From NCBI RefSeq assembly GCF_003858635.1, contig NZ_RQJO01000007.1, forward strand, positions 2,047,941 to 2,111,940: a stretch of 64,000 nt of DNA. The letters run 5' to 3'. The translations under genes and the position numbers were made by a program. Below, piece after piece: positions 27,079 to 34,798 of this stretch. This stretch comes from Larkinella rosea (GTDB lineage Bacteria > Bacteroidota > Bacteroidia > Cytophagales > Spirosomataceae). The stretch's first letter is position 1, and each line of letters starts with the position of its first letter. Under the pieces are notes generated by a model. That model had not been told where the DNA came from and made no database searches. It worked only from the letters and a program-made list of their open reading frames with translations.

Positions 27079-27801
27079 TCAGGCCGTAACGAGTTTTTGA
27101 AGGTATGCGGGATAATTTCTGCCCTGATCGTCGCCGTGGGTAATGCTGTCGCCGAAACAGACGATGCGGTTTTTAACCAATTGCCGCTGACTCAGAAACG
27201 TATAAACCGCCACCGCCATCGTCCGGTATCCTTCGGGCGTGGGGTGGATGCCGTCGGTTTTGTTGCTGTTGGCTTCGTTTTTCAACAAGCTGCTTGCCTC
27301 CAGGCCGATGTTACCCACGGTTTCAAAAATATGGTGCATATCCAGCAAAGGCGAATGCGTATCCGCAGCTACTTTCCGAATGACGTCATTCATCGCATTT
27401 TTTCGGGCGGTATGGCCTTCGGGCTGATAAAACGACGGGTCGTGGCGGGTCATCAGGTAGGGTTCATACACCGGCAGAATCGTCATCAGCATAACCTGGC
27501 TATTCACCGCCATCAGTTTCGAGCAAATGCTCCGCAGATTCCGCTCGTAGTCGGGCAGGTGAACGTGCTTTTTACTGTTTACGTCATTCGTACCCACCAT
27601 TAGAATGGTCAGTTCGGGCCGCAACGCCAGGCAATCCTTCTCAATGCGGGCCAGTAAATCCACCGTATTGTTGCCTCCAACCCCGGCGTTGGTAACCATC
27701 GGATTCAGAGCAGCGGTTTTCGGCTGACGATTTTCTACGAGTTGCCAGTTGAGAAGTGGTGTAACGGCAATAGTGCTTTGCAAAAACGTTCGACGATGCA
27801 T
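27079..27801 (-). CDS. SGNH/GDSL hydrolase with circularly permuted catalytic blocks
   Basis: A 240-residue exported esterase-like protein; RRTFLQSTIAV at the N-terminus looks like a signal or Tat-like segment. The SGNH blocks are all present but reordered: block II NAGVGGNN at 38-45, block III GTND at 70-73, block V DGIH at 183-186, and block I VCFGDSITHG at 214-223, near the C-terminus. In ordinary members block I is N-terminal. The C-terminal NYPAYLQKLVTA would normally lead straight into the residues now at 30-45. No block I lies upstream of 27801. It is co-directional with SusCD and the flavoprotein. Likely role: deacylation of a carbohydrate substrate; inferred. Confidence 0.85.
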   Translation of the reverse strand: MHRRTFLQSTIAVTPLLNWQLVENRQPKTAALNPMVTNAGVGGNNTVDLLARIEKDCLALRPELTILMVGTNDVNSKKHVHLPDYERNLRSICSKLMAVNSQVMLMTILPVYEPYLMTRHDPSFYQPEGHTARKNAMNDVIRKVAADTHSPLLDMHHIFETVGNIGLEASSLLKNEANSNKTDGIHPTPEGYRTMAVAVYTFLSQRQLVKNRIVCFGDSITHGDDQGRNYPAYLQKLVTA

Positions 27802-27880
27802 TTTTAAAATTGAAAGCTGACTGCGGTTTCCTATTTATGATTCTCAAACTAAACCAGGATTTTAAATAACAAGCATTTTC

Positions 27881-28030
27881 AGTCCCGTAGGGACACAATG
27901 TTTGTAGTAAAAAGGTGGCAAATGTTTCCCGCGTGCCTTTAGGTACGCAATTTTGACCTGTCAGATTGCGTACACGCCAGAATGCGAAAATCCAGCTATT
28001 TCTACAAATATTACGTCCCTAAGGGACTAT
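27881..28030. repeat. REP-like pair of inverted palindromic units
   Basis: 27881-27911 (GTCCCGTAGGGAC followed by a TTTGTAG tail) and 27998-28030 (TCTACAAATATTACGTCCCTAAGGGACT type) are inverted copies of one unit, each with its own short palindrome, separated by 86 bp. A third palindromic stretch (GCCTTTAGGTACGC) lies between. This looks like a REP/BIME-type element between the SusD and SGNH genes. Confidence 0.6.
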
Positions 28031-28062
28031 ACTCACGGCCTAATTGCCGATTGCTCTAAAGA

Positions 28063-29484
28063 TCAATACCCCGGATTCTGGTCCAGTTTCGGGTTCACAT
28101 CCCGTTCCGTTTGGGGAATGGGAAACAGGTAATGGTGTTCGGCGACGGGGATGGTCGGGTTCTGGGCTTTCATCGCACTGATCAGCCGTTTGGTGCGCAC
28201 CAGATCATACCACCGATGCCCTTCGAAAGCCAGTTCCAACCGCCGTTCCAGCAGCAGACTATCGCGAAACTGGGCCTGACTGAGGTTCGCCGTCAGGTTC
28301 GGCAAACCCGCCCGGTTGCGGATTCGGTTGATCGTCGCGTAGGCGTCAGCGCTGTTGGCAGCCTGTTCGTTCAACGCTTCCGCGTACATCAGCAACACGT
28401 CGGGATACCGGATAATCGGGTAATTATTCCCGCCGTCACTCGTACCGGTCGAGGTGGGATCGAGGTATTTGTAAACGTAACAAGGGAACAGCACACTGGC
28501 CGGTGCGGCAGGCGTGGTGGTAGTCGAATAGAGCCTCAGCGTTACATTCCGGCGTTTGTCGTCCGGGCGGTAGGCTTTGTACAGGTTTTCAGTCGCGGGA
28601 TCATCGCCAAATCCGGACACGCCGTTGACGCGGTCGAAGTTCGGACGCATATAGCCCTGCATCAGGCTTCCTTCGCCAAAACCGCCACTCAGCGCCTGCA
28701 TTTCAAAAACCGCTTCCTTGCCGTTTTTATTGGCGATCAGAAACGCGTCGGCAAAATTGGCCCACAAATCGTATTGCCCCAGATCGATCACTTCCTTCGC
28801 CTTGGCCGCTGCTTTTGGCCAGTCCTGCCGGGTCAGGTATACTTTGGCCAGATACGCTTTGGCCGCGCCCTTCGTCGCCCGGCCCCGGTCGGCCGCCGAA
28901 TACGTCACCGGTAGAGCGGTTTCGGCATCCGTGAAATCCTGAATGATCAGTTTATAAACGTCGTCGACGGAAGCCCGGGCGACGGCCAAATCATTCAGTG
29001 AAGTCGTTTCCGTCGTAATAAGTGGAACCCCACCGAAATACCGTACCAGCGTGAAATAATAAAACCCGCGCATGAATTTCGCTTCGGCCACGTACCGGGC
29101 TTTCAGGTCATTGTCCATCGTAATACCAGGAACCCGATTAATAACGGTATTGGCCCGGTTGATAGCGGCATACACCGTTGACCAAATCGCCTGAAAGGTG
29201 TTGGTTGCGGGGGTAAACGTGTACTTGTCGAGGTCGTTTTTGGGTTGATTGGCGGTCGAGCGGCCATTCCCCCATTCGGCGTCGTCGGTGGCCTGATCCT
29301 GCAAAATCCACATCACCTGACCGTATAAATTCTGGCTGTTCAGCGGATCATAAACCGCACTGACAGCCGCTTTGGCATCGTCGGCATTTTTGTAAAAATT
29401 GGCCGGTGTAAAACTCGATTCAGGCTTCTGGTCCAGCACTTCGCAGGACGACAGGAGGCAGAGGAGGAAGAGGTATCTTTTCAT
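28063..29484 (-). CDS. SusD/RagB-family outer-membrane lipoprotein
   Basis: A 473-residue nutrient-binding lipoprotein that caps the SusC channel. The signal LFLLCLLSSCEVLDQKP gives a lipid-anchored Cys about residue 14. TPR-like helices follow (KAAVSAVYDPLNSQNLYG, AEAKFMRGFYYFTLVRYFGGVPLIT), and the C-terminal block has the standard YPIIRYPDVLLMYAEALNE and NRIRNRAGLP, RLELAFEGHRWYDLVRT, ending NPKLDQNPGY. Length fits the family. The SusC gene starts 120 bp upstream, on the same strand. Sugar specificity cannot be read from sequence. Confidence 0.95.
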   Translation of the reverse strand: MKRYLFLLCLLSSCEVLDQKPESSFTPANFYKNADDAKAAVSAVYDPLNSQNLYGQVMWILQDQATDDAEWGNGRSTANQPKNDLDKYTFTPATNTFQAIWSTVYAAINRANTVINRVPGITMDNDLKARYVAEAKFMRGFYYFTLVRYFGGVPLITTETTSLNDLAVARASVDDVYKLIIQDFTDAETALPVTYSAADRGRATKGAAKAYLAKVYLTRQDWPKAAAKAKEVIDLGQYDLWANFADAFLIANKNGKEAVFEMQALSGGFGEGSLMQGYMRPNFDRVNGVSGFGDDPATENLYKAYRPDDKRRNVTLRLYSTTTTPAAPASVLFPCYVYKYLDPTSTGTSDGGNNYPIIRYPDVLLMYAEALNEQAANSADAYATINRIRNRAGLPNLTANLSQAQFRDSLLLERRLELAFEGHRWYDLVRTKRLISAMKAQNPTIPVAEHHYLFPIPQTERDVNPKLDQNPGY

Positions 29485-29603: not shown

Positions 29604-32600
29604 TTAAAATCCAACATTTAGTCCGAACAAAAGCGTTTTCGTGGCCGGGTAGCTGGCGTAGTCGAAGCCCTGGCTGCGGCTGTCCTGCCCAAACCGGTTT
29701 ACTTCCGGATCGTAGCCCGAATAGCTGGTCCAGGTCAGGAAGTTCTGGGCGGTAACGTACACGCGAACCGACTGAATTTTCAGGGCCTGAATCACCGACG
29801 TCGGCAGGTTGTAGGCCAGCTGGAGATTCTTCAGCCGCAGGTACGACCCGTCTTCAATCTGCCGGGTCGAAACGCGGTTGGCGGGGCGGGTTGTCGAAGC
29901 CCGCGGAATGTCGGTGTTGGTGTTGGTCGGTGTCCAGCGGTTCAGTACATCCCGGTCCTGATTGGTGGTTGCGTTCAGGTATTCCAGCTCATACCGGTTG
30001 GCATTCAGGATGTTATTACCGTAAACGCCCTGAAAGAAAGCCGTCAGTTCGAAGCCCTTAAACGAGAACGTATTGCTGATGCCACCGATAAATTTGGGTT
30101 GCGCCCGGCCAATAATCGTGCGGTCGTTGTCATCAATTTTCTTGTCGCCGTTCAGATCGGCGTACTTGCGATCACCCGGTTTTCGGGCCTGCGGATCGGT
30201 CAGTGCCGTTAGCTCGTCGGTGGTTTGGTAGAGGCCGTTGGTCACGTAGCCAAAGAACGACCCCAGCGGTTCGCCAACCCGGATAATCCCGGAATTCAGC
30301 CCCTGGCCAATGTTGGCGACACTTCCGGCAAAAATCTGGGGTGCTCCGCCAATGTCGAGCACCTTGTTGCGGTTGGACGCAAAATTCAGGTCGGTATTCC
30401 ATTTAAAAGCCCCGTCGATGTTGCGCGACGAAATGCTGAATTCAAGCCCTTTATTTTCAACCTTCCCGAGGTTTTTGATGGCACTCGAAAAACCCGACGT
30501 ACTCGGAACGGTGACGTTCAGCAGCAAATCTTTCGTCCGTTTCAGGTACGCATCGGCGGTCAATGTGATCCGGTTATTCAGAAAACCGACGTCAATTCCA
30601 AAATCAGCCTGCGTGGTGGTTTCCCACGACAAATCCGGGTTGGCAATCTGATTCGGCCCTAAACCGGTCGAAACCGTGTTGCCAAATACGTAGTTCTGGG
30701 TTCCCAGCAGCGAATAGGCCGGGTAGTTTCCAACACCGTCCTGGTTGCCGGTCGCACCGTAGGTCAGCCGGACTTTCAGGTCGTTCACCACGCGGCTGCT
30801 TTTCATAAATGCTTCTTCCGAAACCCGCCACGCCAGAGCCGCCGAGGGAAAATAGCCGTTGCGTTTGTTGGTCCCGAACCGGGAAGAACCATCGGTCCGG
30901 AACGAAGCAGTTAACAGGTATTTGTCTTTGTACCCGTAATTAATCCGGGCCAGATACGACCGCAATCCCCAGGTTCCGATGCCCGATTCGGGTGTCAGCG
31001 GTACCGAACCCGACGCCAGGTTGCTCGAACCAAGGTTGTCATTCACAAAATTACGCGACTGCGCCCGGCTGGATTCCGTGCGGTTGGCCTGCTGCGTATA
31101 CCCAATCAGGGCCGTAATATTGTGGATCGTATTAAAGGTTCGGGTGTACGTCAGCAGGTTCTCATTAAGCCAGGTTATCGATTGGGCGTTGTAAATAGTC
31201 GCGGACCCGCCCTGTGCCAAACCGCTCGAAACCGAGCGCGGGAGGTACGAATCCTGTTTTTGTAAAACCGCGTCAATGCCCAGCGACACGCGCAGGCTTA
31301 GGCCGTCAATGATCTGATAATCACCAAAAATGTTTCCGAAAACACGGTAAGCCGTGTTGCGGTTTTTGTTGTCGCGGGCCAGCGCCACCGGGTTGTCGGC
31401 GGTAAAGGCGAGCGCCGGATCGGTCAGCAAATAGGAACCGTTGGGCGTCGTCACCGGCAGAATGGGCGGGAATTGCAGTGCCGCAATCGTGACCAGACCA
31501 GCACTGCCCAGATCGCCGTCCGAACGCGCCTGATTGGTGACCGTCCGATTGACAGTCAGGCTATTACCGATTTTGATTTTACTGGTCAGCTTGCGGTCCA
31601 GGTTTACCCGGAACGAATACCGGTCGAAATCGGAGTTGACGATAATCCCGTTCTGTTTAAAATAACCGCCCGCGACGGCGTACTGGGTTTTTTCATCCCC
31701 GCCACTAAACGAAAGCTGGTAATTGGAAATGGGCGCCTGACGGAAAATCTCGTCCTGCCAGTCGGTGCCCACGCCGAAGGCATCAACCTGAGCCTGGGTG
31801 TAAACCGCCGGACGACCTTCGTTGGTATTGGCGTCGTTGACAAACTGCGCGTACTCCCGGGCGTTCAAAACCGGGTATTTCCGGCGGACATTTTGAACTC
31901 CGTAATAGCTCTCAAACGAAATGGTCGACTTTCCGGCTTTTCCGCGTTTGGTCGTGATAATCACCACGCCATTCGCCCCACGCGATCCGTAAATAGCCGT
32001 CGAAGACGCATCTTTCAGCACCGAAATCGATTCGATATCGCTGGGATTGAGCGTACTCAACACGTTGAAATTCGAGCCCGAACTGGCCCCATCGTTTTTA
32101 AACGGAATGCCGTCGATGACGTACAGCGGCTCGTTATCACCCTGTATCGAGTTGCCGCCCCGAATCCGGATGCTGGTCGTACCGCCCGGTGCACCTGAGT
32201 TCTGGGTGATCTGCACCCCGGCCGCCCGGCCCTGCAACGCCTGATCGAGCGAGGTAACGGCCACTTTCTTAATTTCTTCCACCGGAACCGTGGCCACCGC
32301 ACCGGTCAGGTCGCTTTTCTTGACCTGTCCGTAGCCGACTACCACCACTTCGTTCAACGCTTTGGTATCCGGAACCAGTTGAATATCAATTACCGAGCGG
32401 TTTCCAATCACCTGTTCCTGACTCGCATAACCGACAAAACTGAAAACCAGTGTGACGTTCTCGTTGGGAACGCTGAGCTGATAGCGACCCTCGGCATCGG
32501 TGGACGTTCCACGCGGAGAGCCCTTCACCACCACACTCACGCCGGGAAGTCCTTCACCGGTTTCGCTCGTTACCCGGCCGCTGACTTTTACATCCACCGG

Positions 32601-33083
32601 GGCCACGCCGATCAGTTGGGCGGGTGAAATAGCGGTCAGGCCTGCCAGCGGAATGGGGCCGCTTTCGGCCGCGGAGGTGTTGGTCAATGGGGGCAGACTG
32701 TTGGTGGAGCGATCGCTGTTTTTGGGCGGCAAAATCAAATATGCGCCTGAACGTAGCTTCTTAAACCGCAGTCCGTAACGTTTTAGAACGGTAGTCAGAT
32801 TCGTTTCCAGCCGGACGGTCAGATCAAGCGGTTCGGTCGGGCTGAGGTTTCGTCCGACAACCGATTCCTCGAACAGAATATCGACGCCATAATGCGCCTT
32901 CAGTTCTAGTAAGGTTTGCTTTAACGTCAGATTGGTGCCCGTCGAGGCCGCGGTTTTGCCCGCCTGCGGGGTGTCGATCTGCTGGGTTGTCCGGACCAGG
33001 GCGAGTGTCTGGGCGACGGTATTGCCGTAACCGACGCTGATCAATAACCCGGTTGCCAGGGCGAGGGGTAACGATTTTCTCAT
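29604..33083 (-). CDS. SusC/RagA TonB-dependent transporter with STN signalling domain
   Basis: A 1159-residue outer-membrane importer. Signal peptide, then an STN (secretin/TonB short N-terminal) domain about 55-110 (TLKQTLLELKAHYGVDILFEE) that contacts the anti-sigma factor, a carboxypeptidase-like domain about 165-250 (VSGRVTSETGEGLPGVSVVVKG), a plug with NSIQGDNEPLYVIDGIPF and SSTAIYGSRGANGVVIITTK, and a large barrel ending LLFGLNVGF. The STN domain is absent from ordinary SusC proteins and marks trans-envelope signalling. FecR overlaps its start (ATGA at 33080-33083), so FecR, SusC and the sigma factor are one transcriptional unit. Confidence 0.95.
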   Translation of the reverse strand: MRKSLPLALATGLLISVGYGNTVAQTLALVRTTQQIDTPQAGKTAASTGTNLTLKQTLLELKAHYGVDILFEESVVGRNLSPTEPLDLTVRLETNLTTVLKRYGLRFKKLRSGAYLILPPKNSDRSTNSLPPLTNTSAAESGPIPLAGLTAISPAQLIGVAPVDVKVSGRVTSETGEGLPGVSVVVKGSPRGTSTDAEGRYQLSVPNENVTLVFSFVGYASQEQVIGNRSVIDIQLVPDTKALNEVVVVGYGQVKKSDLTGAVATVPVEEIKKVAVTSLDQALQGRAAGVQITQNSGAPGGTTSIRIRGGNSIQGDNEPLYVIDGIPFKNDGASSGSNFNVLSTLNPSDIESISVLKDASSTAIYGSRGANGVVIITTKRGKAGKSTISFESYYGVQNVRRKYPVLNAREYAQFVNDANTNEGRPAVYTQAQVDAFGVGTDWQDEIFRQAPISNYQLSFSGGDEKTQYAVAGGYFKQNGIIVNSDFDRYSFRVNLDRKLTSKIKIGNSLTVNRTVTNQARSDGDLGSAGLVTIAALQFPPILPVTTPNGSYLLTDPALAFTADNPVALARDNKNRNTAYRVFGNIFGDYQIIDGLSLRVSLGIDAVLQKQDSYLPRSVSSGLAQGGSATIYNAQSITWLNENLLTYTRTFNTIHNITALIGYTQQANRTESSRAQSRNFVNDNLGSSNLASGSVPLTPESGIGTWGLRSYLARINYGYKDKYLLTASFRTDGSSRFGTNKRNGYFPSAALAWRVSEEAFMKSSRVVNDLKVRLTYGATGNQDGVGNYPAYSLLGTQNYVFGNTVSTGLGPNQIANPDLSWETTTQADFGIDVGFLNNRITLTADAYLKRTKDLLLNVTVPSTSGFSSAIKNLGKVENKGLEFSISSRNIDGAFKWNTDLNFASNRNKVLDIGGAPQIFAGSVANIGQGLNSGIIRVGEPLGSFFGYVTNGLYQTTDELTALTDPQARKPGDRKYADLNGDKKIDDNDRTIIGRAQPKFIGGISNTFSFKGFELTAFFQGVYGNNILNANRYELEYLNATTNQDRDVLNRWTPTNTNTDIPRASTTRPANRVSTRQIEDGSYLRLKNLQLAYNLPTSVIQALKIQSVRVYVTAQNFLTWTSYSGYDPEVNRFGQDSRSQGFDYASYPATKTLLFGLNVGF

Positions 33084-34099
33084 TGGGTAATGGAGTTTTC
33101 GGAAACAGTTGAAAAAATGAGATATTGGTCTAGGTGGCTGAGCCGCAGGTTGAGCAATTCCGCCAGGGCCTCCGCCAGTTCGTCGGACGATCCGGCCCGG
33201 ATCGTTCCGGTCAGTTTCCGGCGGGCCAGCGCCGGGTCGGAAAGCTGGACATGGACCCCAAAAACCGCCTGAATCTGGCGGGCCACTTCGCGCAGGGGCG
33301 TGTTATTAAAACTAAACAGGCGATACCGCCAACTGGCAAATCGCGCCGTATCGGCCTTGGGCTGCAAATGAAGCGAGCCTTTGTCGTCGAGCAGCACCCG
33401 GTCGCCGGGTTTCATCAGCAGATTCTGCGGGGGCTGATTTTCGGAGGCATAGCGCAGATTCACCTTGCCGCGTTTCAGAACCACCTCGGCTTTGGCCGCC
33501 CGGCTGCGCACCGAAAATTCGGTTCCCAACACTTCTACATCCAGCCCATTCATGTCCTGCACTACAAAAGGCTGGTTGGTCGAAAGGTGTTTGACGTCGA
33601 AAACCGCATCACCCGTTAGGGCCACCCGCCGGGAAAGCCAGCCGTAGCCGATGCGGGGAATGGTTACCGATGAATTGCTGTTGAGCGCGATCGTTGAGCC
33701 ATCGGGCAGGCTCAGCGACCGGAGCTGGTGCGAGCCGGTCGAGATGGTTTTGTACAGGAGCGGTTTTTGAAAAAACCAGCCCCCGGCGAGCAGTGCGAGT
33801 GCTACCGAAGCGGCAGCCAGCCAGCGGAGCGGTTTTTGAAACAAGCGGGCGTCTTCCGGAAGCTGACGTACCAAGCGGGGCTGTTCTTCGGCCGGATTTT
33901 CCATCCGCTGACGGAATAGATCGACGTGATGGGTCAAATCGGGGGCGTATTGCGGGAAGCTCCGCTCCCATTCATCCAGCCACTGAAAATACATTTCCCG
34001 GCTGGTTGGTCGGTTGAGCCATTCACCGATCACTTTCTGTTGCACCGAGGTTGCCTGGCCGGCAAAGTAGGTGAATAGCAATTCTTTAGTAGGTTCCAT
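33080..34099 (-). CDS. FecR-family anti-sigma factor
   Basis: A 339-residue membrane protein that transmits ligand status from SusC to the sigma factor. The cytoplasmic N-terminus contains FTYFAGQATSVQQKVIGEWLNRP and EMYFQWLDEWERSFP, typical of Bacteroidota anti-sigma regions; a membrane helix follows at about 92-110 (WLAAASVALALLAGGWFF); the periplasmic FecR domain has GSHQLRSLSLPDGSTIALNSNSS; and the C-terminal STN-like DUF4974 domain (VARQIQAVFGVHVQLSD, KLTGTIRAGSSDELAEAL). The sigma gene ends 24 bp upstream. Overlap with SusC by ATGA suggests coupled translation. Confidence 0.93.
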   Translation of the reverse strand: MEPTKELLFTYFAGQATSVQQKVIGEWLNRPTSREMYFQWLDEWERSFPQYAPDLTHHVDLFRQRMENPAEEQPRLVRQLPEDARLFQKPLRWLAAASVALALLAGGWFFQKPLLYKTISTGSHQLRSLSLPDGSTIALNSNSSVTIPRIGYGWLSRRVALTGDAVFDVKHLSTNQPFVVQDMNGLDVEVLGTEFSVRSRAAKAEVVLKRGKVNLRYASENQPPQNLLMKPGDRVLLDDKGSLHLQPKADTARFASWRYRLFSFNNTPLREVARQIQAVFGVHVQLSDPALARRKLTGTIRAGSSDELAEALAELLNLRLSHLDQYLIFSTVSENSITQ

Positions 34100-34123: not shown

Positions 34124-34798
34124 TTACGGAAAAACCGTCAGCAGCAGCAGGGCCCAGCCAATCAGCTTTTGCTGCCGGAGAAACTGTCGAACGGTCGAAA
34201 TGGCCTGTAGCAGGTGGTTTTCGACGGTTTTGGGCGAAAGCGACAGTTCCGCGGCAATTTCTTTGTAGGATTTCCCTTCGAAGCGGCTCAGCAGAAACAC
34301 CCGCTGGCGTTGGGGAGACAGGCGCTGAACGGCCTGTTCGAGTGCCCGGTAGAGCTCGTCCTGCTGCAGGAGCCGGTCGGGCTGAGTGGCTTCCAGATCG
34401 GCCTGCTCGAGGTCGTCGGGCAGGGTTTCCTGCCGGTTTAGTTCCCAGCGCAAACTGTTGTAGGCCCGGTTGCGCACGGCCTGGTAAAGGTAAGCCCGGT
34501 ACGAGCCCTTCACCTGCCTATACAGTGCCTTCTGGTAGAAGGTATAAAACAGATCCGCCACCACGTCTTCAGCCACCTGCCGGTCGTAGACGAACCGGAT
34601 CGCGTGGCTGCACAAAGGCGCAAAATACTGCCGGAAGAGCAGCTCGCAGCCCAGTTTGGGGTCCGTATCAAACGCATTGCGAATGAACAATTCCGGATCG
34701 GTCGTCGCGGGGATTTCGGTGTCGTTCCGCAGCAGGGGCGTCAACCCGATGGAAGTCGGATCGGGAATGCGTCGGAATGGAAACGAGTTGACAGACAT
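34124..34798 (-). CDS. ECF sigma-70 factor
   Basis: A 224-residue alternative sigma factor. Region 2 is at about 45-115 (LFRQYFAPLCSHAIRFVYDRQVAEDVVADLFYTFYQK, SYRAYLYQAVRNRAYN) and region 4 at about 150-205 (LSPQRQRVFLLSRFEGKSYKEIAAELSLSPKTVENHLLQA). The C-terminal AQQLIGWALLLLTVFP-like tail is hydrophobic. It is first in the operon sigma-FecR-SusC-SusD-SGNH-FAD oxidase. A -7-like TAAATTTG lies upstream at 34879-34886. It should direct RNA polymerase to this locus after FecR signalling. Confidence 0.94.
   Translation of the reverse strand: MSVNSFPFRRIPDPTSIGLTPLLRNDTEIPATTDPELFIRNAFDTDPKLGCELLFRQYFAPLCSHAIRFVYDRQVAEDVVADLFYTFYQKALYRQVKGSYRAYLYQAVRNRAYNSLRWELNRQETLPDDLEQADLEATQPDRLLQQDELYRALEQAVQRLSPQRQRVFLLSRFEGKSYKEIAAELSLSPKTVENHLLQAISTVRQFLRQQKLIGWALLLLTVFP

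Follow-up and report, generated by a model that had tools for sequence, protein, structure and literature searches.

Described permutations of the SGNH fold

Circularly permuted SGNH-like enzymes have been described and, in the available portions of the reports on AlgJ, AlgX, WssI and PatB1 (PMC9487903, PMC4148444, PMC10302187, PMC5697884), all four are O-acetyltransferases with the order H-S-G-N, Y or D replacing N in AlgJ/AlgX and WssI. According to the same portions, the permuted SGNH fold of the AlgX/AlgJ family and WssI is cut between blocks III and V and carries a Ser-His-Asp triad (PMC9487903, PMC4148444, PMC10302187), and these enzymes function in exopolysaccharide synthesis. The motifs are altered in AlgX/AlgJ (GTSYS, DxH and Tyr for Asn) and in PatB1 of Bacillus cereus (5V8E; DHHW family), a cell-wall polysaccharide O-acetyltransferase with a permuted SGNH-type core, DHHW as block V and KDS as block I.

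The family described here resembles these enzymes in its permuted SGNH-type core but differs from them, as far as the available portions go, in its order (G-N-H-S), in its canonical motifs (GDS, DGxH and, in most members, GTND) and in its catabolic setting. Neither the H-S-G-N order nor the altered motifs (GTSYS/KDS, DxH/DHHW, Tyr for Asn) were found in it. As far as tested, its sequences suggest a second, differently placed SGNH permutation, cut between blocks I and II; in the open-licence PMC literature no description of a G-N-H-S SGNH protein was found, and only the H-S-G-N type turned up. A sequence-only reading of the locus had taken block I to be N-terminal in the known SGNH/GDSL hydrolases, which the described permuted enzymes (AlgX/AlgJ, PatB1 and WssI) contradict, though they are cut elsewhere.

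The best sequence and fold matches of the permuted protein are linear SGNH/GDSL carbohydrate esterases. AlAXEase (7DDY), Axe2 (3W7V), the Bacteroides acylhydrolases 4IYJ/4PPY and the sialate O-acetylesterase 6NJC have the same four blocks with canonical motifs, but block I is N-terminal in these linear enzymes and C-terminal in the permuted family. Among the best 60 of the 63 PDB chains matched by a profile of the family, 59 have their best stretch ending at position 206 or before, and the other, 4rw0_A, matches block I alone, at its own N-terminus. The profile also touches, at 115-206, the PatB chain 8tlb_A, which is named a peptidoglycan O-acetyltransferase and is not PatB1.

Gene, motifs and block order

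The permuted SGNH hydrolase gene is located at 27079..27801 on the minus strand of the window (the whole 64,000-nucleotide stretch of Larkinella rosea DNA that was analysed) and encodes 240 amino acid residues plus a stop codon. The superfamily residues Ser, Gly, Asn and His/Asp of blocks I, II, III and V are all present, but in the translation the blocks run II-III-V-I (G-N-H-S) and not in the canonical order I-II-III-V. From sequence and alignment, block II (NAGVGGNN, residues 38-45, 27667..27690) is near the N-terminus of the mature protein and is followed by block III (GTND, residues 70-73, 27583..27594), block V (DGIH, residues 183-186, 27244..27255) and block I (GDSITHG, residues 217-223, 27133..27153), which contains the proposed nucleophile, Ser219; all are on the minus strand, and the translation agrees exactly with the motif positions given in the sequence-only reading. 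The transposed segment, residues 206-240 (27082..27186, minus strand), comprises strand 212-217, the block I serine and helix 230-239. The protein starts with MHRRTFLQSTIAV, and residues 1-30 (27712..27801, minus strand) form a putative export signal, as judged from the sequence, from pLDDT values below 50 and from the highest dN in the protein. By inspection this signal is twin-arginine-like, RRTFLQ being what we take to be the twin-arginine motif.

The native protein matches Pfam Lipase_GDSL_2 (PF13472) at 1.6e-24 and 87.9 bits, above the cut-off of 32.9 bits, in two stretches. The better of these spans only positions 35-177 of the 178 in the profile, starting at position 35 because the first unit is absent from the front. 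Annotation with linear profiles thus sees a headless GDSL match, and such proteins may pass for truncated or inactive ones. An overlooked N-terminal block I in the same frame was considered and rejected, since ahead of the start the frame stays open for a mere 11 codons (251 residues in all).

We consider it very probable that the protein is an exported SGNH-fold esterase in which the beta1-Ser-alpha1 unit has been circularly permuted from the N- to the C-terminus. The first unit of the fold, strand beta1 with the catalytic serine and helix alpha1, would have moved as a whole, beta1 would insert at its usual place in the sheet, and Ser219, Asp183-His186 and the oxyanion donors (the block II Gly and Asn72) would form one ordinary active site.

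Rotation and core-profile tests

The sequence-only reading had proposed that joining the C-terminus to the front restores a linear SGNH sequence, and the rotated protein behaves in this way. The native mature protein scores 87.8 bits against PF13472 in two stretches. Placing its last 33 residues ahead of the rest raises the score to 100 bits, with one unbroken stretch over 1-177 of 178, and shuffling those C-terminal residues lowers it to 72.7 bits. The score of L010, a linear paralogue in the same genome, is 88.7 bits.

A core profile, from which block I was left out, was run on the 779 open reading frames of at least 120 residues from the fetched loci, and 50 proteins were left once identical cores had been removed. 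Thirty of these scored 164-261 bits and had a GDS-type motif downstream of the core in every case. The other 20 scored at most 89.4 bits, with block I upstream of the core in 18, on neither side in two (L080 and L038) and downstream in none; the gap in score between the two sets is partly by construction, 20 of the 30 permuted sequences having been in the training set. In two permuted proteins, L002 and L012, a tetrapeptide resembling the motif occurs ahead of the core as well, within the signal or leader sequence. The 30 distinct permuted proteins are 27 from bacteria, the window's included, and three from viral contigs; their identity goes down to 27%, and the order G-N-H-S is kept in all of them.

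That this is a true permutation, as had been claimed from the sequence, is backed by the rotation test, by conservation, by two structure models and by the split between full-length and core-only matches in the genome scans.

Gene neighbourhood and predicted function

The permuted gene is flanked by a SusD-like gene (28063..29484) and by a FAD_oxidored gene (PF12831; 25350..27056), the latter 22 bp downstream. Ahead of it are also genes for a SusC/TonB-dependent receptor with Plug and CarboxypepD_reg-like domains (29604..33083), a FecR-type anti-sigma regulator (33080..34099) and an ECF-type sigma factor (34124..34798). All are on the minus strand, and the SusC and SusD genes bear out the TonB/SusCD locus previously recognised there. 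Tblastn searches with the proteins of the window placed SusD and the FAD oxidoreductase on opposite sides of the gene in 17 of 18 close loci (L001-L005, L007, L008 and L012-L021; the proteins of L007 and L015 are identical, and these two loci may come from one species). At the remaining locus, L006, the searches found neither SusCD nor the FAD oxidoreductase, and the gene is surrounded by histidine-kinase, PAS and thioredoxin-like genes.

Nine distant loci were inspected over 12-19.5 kb around the gene. SusC relatives are present, by tblastn, in seven (L120, L121, L122, L124, L125, L126 and L128) and the FAD oxidoreductase in four, by tblastn in L121 (about 6 kb off) and L122 and by Pfam in L122, L124 and L127. 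The neighbours include a GH20 hexosaminidase (L120), a GH29 fucosidase (L121), sulfatases (L122) and a GH88 enzyme (L126), the Pfam scans at these loci having covered chosen neighbours. In the window itself, a scan of nine genes between 16.9 and 34.8 kb found no glycoside hydrolase. By their sequence matches, the neighbouring genes point to glycan catabolism.

The most likely function is that of an exported carbohydrate O-acyl (acetyl) esterase, with a substrate guessed from its context. After export by the Tat-like signal, the enzyme would remove O-acyl groups, most likely O-acetyl, from a glycan imported by the SusCD pair encoded next to it; O-acetyl was chosen because acetyl xylan esterases are among the PDB entries closest to it in sequence. 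The alternative that fares best, although improbable, is an O-acyltransferase that decorates a glycan in the manner of AlgX/AlgJ, PatB1 and WssI, since the permuted SGNH enzymes described in the available portions of the literature are O-acetyltransferases. The motifs and the neighbourhood argue against it. An alignment of 20 sequences has GDS and DGxH in every row and GTND in 18, the exceptions to the latter being GVND in L066 and GIHD in L025, where His takes the place of the block III Asn present in the other 19; this is unlike the GTSYS, DxH and Tyr given for AlgX/AlgJ in those portions. The neighbours are catabolic, and an MBOAT acyl exporter was absent from the subset of neighbours scanned.

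The FAD_oxidored gene remains a neighbour of the permuted esterase gene in some of the distant relatives, too, and its product could contribute to the use of the glycan by oxidising a sugar.

Between the SusD and the permuted gene, at 27860-28045 of the window, there is a long imperfect palindrome with GTCCCNNAGGGAC and TTTGTAG at both ends, which has a fold z-score of -5.5; the genome has one further such inverted pair. The GTCCCNNAGGGAC core is present in three of 128 fetched loci, all three covering the same place as the window palindrome, which looks like an insertion of the REP/MITE type.

Predicted structure

Two AlphaFold2 models were obtained, one of the protein from 9 sequences (mean pLDDT 77.3, pTM 0.78) and one of its mature part from 12 sequences, three of them viral (pLDDT 83.1, pTM 0.85). 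The predicted fold is SGNH-like, alpha/beta/alpha. In the first model strand 212-217 runs directly into Ser219 and the chain ends in helix 230-239, and the second has the same C-terminal strand and helices; residues 211-220 have an average pLDDT of 92 in the first and 85 in the second. The first model has 35 residues with pLDDT below 50, mainly within 1-30, and residues with pLDDT of 50-70 number 41 in the first and 43 in the second.

Foldseek searches with the two models gave 1641-1686 PDB matches, of which the best 50 chains are considered here. With the second model, these 50 are GDSL/SGNH-type esterases and the scaffolds 9hi4-9hi6, which match the same profile; some of the chains were assigned by title or by sequence match and others are ones that we take to be such esterases. 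The first model gave a similar list, in which 7bxb/7bxc are not identifiable as such by title. TM-scores normalised by query length are moderate, 0.39-0.51 for the first model and 0.46-0.59 for the second, and alignments with the second comprise 161-184 columns at an rmsd of 3.2-5.8 Å. Alignments as short as these would fit a moved unit that drops out of a sequential alignment. AlgX, AlgJ and B. cereus PatB1 were absent from the best 50 PDB chains.

The models bear on a further alternative, a strand-swapped dimer or oligomer in which each C-terminal GDS segment would contribute to the active site of another subunit beside it. Only a short loop (approximately residues 206-211) links the last core helix to the moved strand, and such an exchange is compatible with the monomer models; these nevertheless place the strand with good confidence within the one chain, and across the 20 aligned relatives the connection hardly changes in length, by a few residues at most. 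We therefore regard strand swapping as doubtful, slightly more so than the acyltransferase.

With the permutation within one chain as the preferred reading, the SGNH active site appears to tolerate a second chain break, directly after the unit that bears the nucleophile, with the canonical motifs kept, and the permuted family is a clean natural test of the rewiring of an enzyme fold.

Conservation and distribution

The alignment of 20 sequences, 27-82% identical to the window protein, has 16 invariant positions: N38, G40, R52, G70, D73, N175, N178, D183, G184, H186, G191, G217, D218, S219, G223 and P231. Selection on the C-terminus was estimated by comparison with Larkinella orthologues. For residues 206-238, dN/dS is 0.052 (L001), 0.146 (L002), 0.043 (L003) and 0.035 (L008), a fifth orthologue (L004) having yielded no dS, and the core gives 0.108-0.129 in the same comparisons. 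These values suggest that the C-terminal segment is under purifying selection. They also weigh on the view that the GDS at the C-terminus is a relic without a catalytic role, the protein being inactive or an SGNH-like domain that works differently. Such a view draws on the fact that activity is deduced from the sequence, but it sits poorly with the invariance of G217, D218 and S219 along with D183, H186, G70 and D73 and with the low C-terminal dN/dS against all four orthologues, and we think it distinctly unlikely.

The C-terminal GDS block is carried by all eight relatives examined in Larkinella, Spirosoma, Telluribacter and Xanthocytophaga (53-82% identity). An artefact of gene calling, frameshift or assembly, which the sequence-only reading had named as one finding that would refute its claim, can be dismissed as next to impossible: the same order recurs in these relatives and in genomes of several families, with no stops in the matched frame, and the C-terminus is under selection.

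The genome scans were all centred on Bacteroidota, and the genome samples of the order, class and phylum scans overlap and were not randomly chosen. With the window protein as query, 15 of 390 genomes of the order, the window's own included, match at E ≤ 1e-20, and all 15 matches extend to residue 238 or beyond, those in the other 14 genomes to 238 or 239. With the profile of 20 sequences, 15 of 390 genomes have matches at E ≤ 7.9e-86 that extend to position 236-237 of 238. The match listed after these has an E-value of 9.0e-26, and those that remain stop no later than 207, the behaviour expected of linear GDSL proteins. In the phylum-wide scan, four of 395 genomes match to the end (the window's own, G494, G678 and G546), and two further matches, ending at 196 and 204, are both linear. 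The class-wide scan likewise gave four of 395 to the end (the window's own, G546, G1057 and G1077) and two further matches, ending at 209 and 204, both linear. In the class of G494, one of 244 genomes matches to the end and 11 others end at 198 or before. The search across Bacteroidota for the same block order that had been proposed thus finds full-length permuted matches, and the permuted SGNH family, as recognised by these matches, appears widespread in Bacteroidota but patchy. The scan of contigs across genomes used the single window protein as query. In a plasmid collection nine records matched, all within query residues 21-213, and none reached the C-terminus.

Origin of the permuted family

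The linear proteins that score best against the permuted core profile (74-89 bits) are of the GDSITQ/GDSITE type, of the kind of L010, L060, L061 and L064. In a tree of 45 cores (30 permuted and 15 linear), which includes long-branch linear proteins and omits five of the 50 core-profile rows because of their shortness, two changes of the permuted label are required. In a tree of 32 cores, comprising 24 of the 30 permuted proteins (six near-copies left out) and a hand-chosen eight of the 15 linear ones, the permuted proteins lie on one side of a branch with support of 61/60. A single origin is weakly supported by the smaller tree and not by the larger.

The permuted form could have arisen by duplication: a GDSL gene would have undergone tandem duplication or fusion, after which the first beta1 and the last core were lost.

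The genome of the window (G000) has a large SGNH repertoire, with 31 Lipase_GDSL_2 matches, 29 of them above the cut-off. Two of its open reading frames have two SGNH matches each in tandem, one of 501 residues (L035/L041, G000:C11:1651535-1652611) and one of 629 residues (L032/L047, G000:C17:243442-244605). This genome therefore does contain tandem fusions such as permutation by duplication would require; kinship of these two to the permuted family is not implied.

Viral and fused versions

The permuted domain is carried by three distinct IMG/VR contigs, L065, L066 and L070; in the four scans of viral contigs L065 was also seen as L067 and L069, and L066 as L068. On L065 (40.3 kb) the open reading frame is at L065:2950-3642, after a 588-residue open reading frame with an fn3 match and before an endolysin. 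On L066 (38.4 kb; L066:2236-3693) and L070 (53.9 kb; L070:4254-5696) the domain is the C-terminal half of proteins of 465 and 467 residues, respectively, fused behind an N-terminal part of about 250 residues. Both of these proteins adjoin genes with tail-fibre or minor-tail matches, an endolysin is nearby, and genes upstream on L070 match baseplate wedge families. On the basis of these neighbours the three proteins are possible tail-associated esterases.

SGNH/GDSL esterases of phages are known from PHROG lipase and tail families, with the SGNH domain in phage genes, some of them annotated as tail. In one viral-contig scan of 13 loci, where L072 duplicates L071 and L075 duplicates L074, two (L069 and L070) are permuted and ten of the other 11 have a GDS-type block I before the core; in the remaining one, L080, block I was not seen. 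Searches of named phages found no permuted form at the sensitivity used, all 23 records being of the core only; the L065 protein gave two records (one phage twice), again core only, and the L066 domain none. Proteins from Vibrio, Microbacterium, Listeria and Arthrobacter phages match the core only (query 33-206), as expected of the linear order, unlike L065, L066 and L070.

It is likely, if less firmly so than the permutation itself, that a G-N-H-S permutation distinct from that of AlgX/PatB1 founded an old, patchy family of glycan esterases across the polysaccharide loci of Bacteroidota, and that tailed phages have this permuted domain at work on their tail proteins, where it would probably deacylate receptors or capsules. 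The family is small and well bounded, with a conserved FAD_oxidored partner, a testable substrate and a phage version beside tail genes.

A further fusion was observed at L123:9079-10884, where a single protein of 602 residues has a permuted SGNH domain, with a block III that reads GIHD and is without the Asn, and a C-terminal domain with a GHSYGG motif. The match of the latter to glucuronyl esterase is weak and below the cut-off, and the fusion is a possible double esterase.
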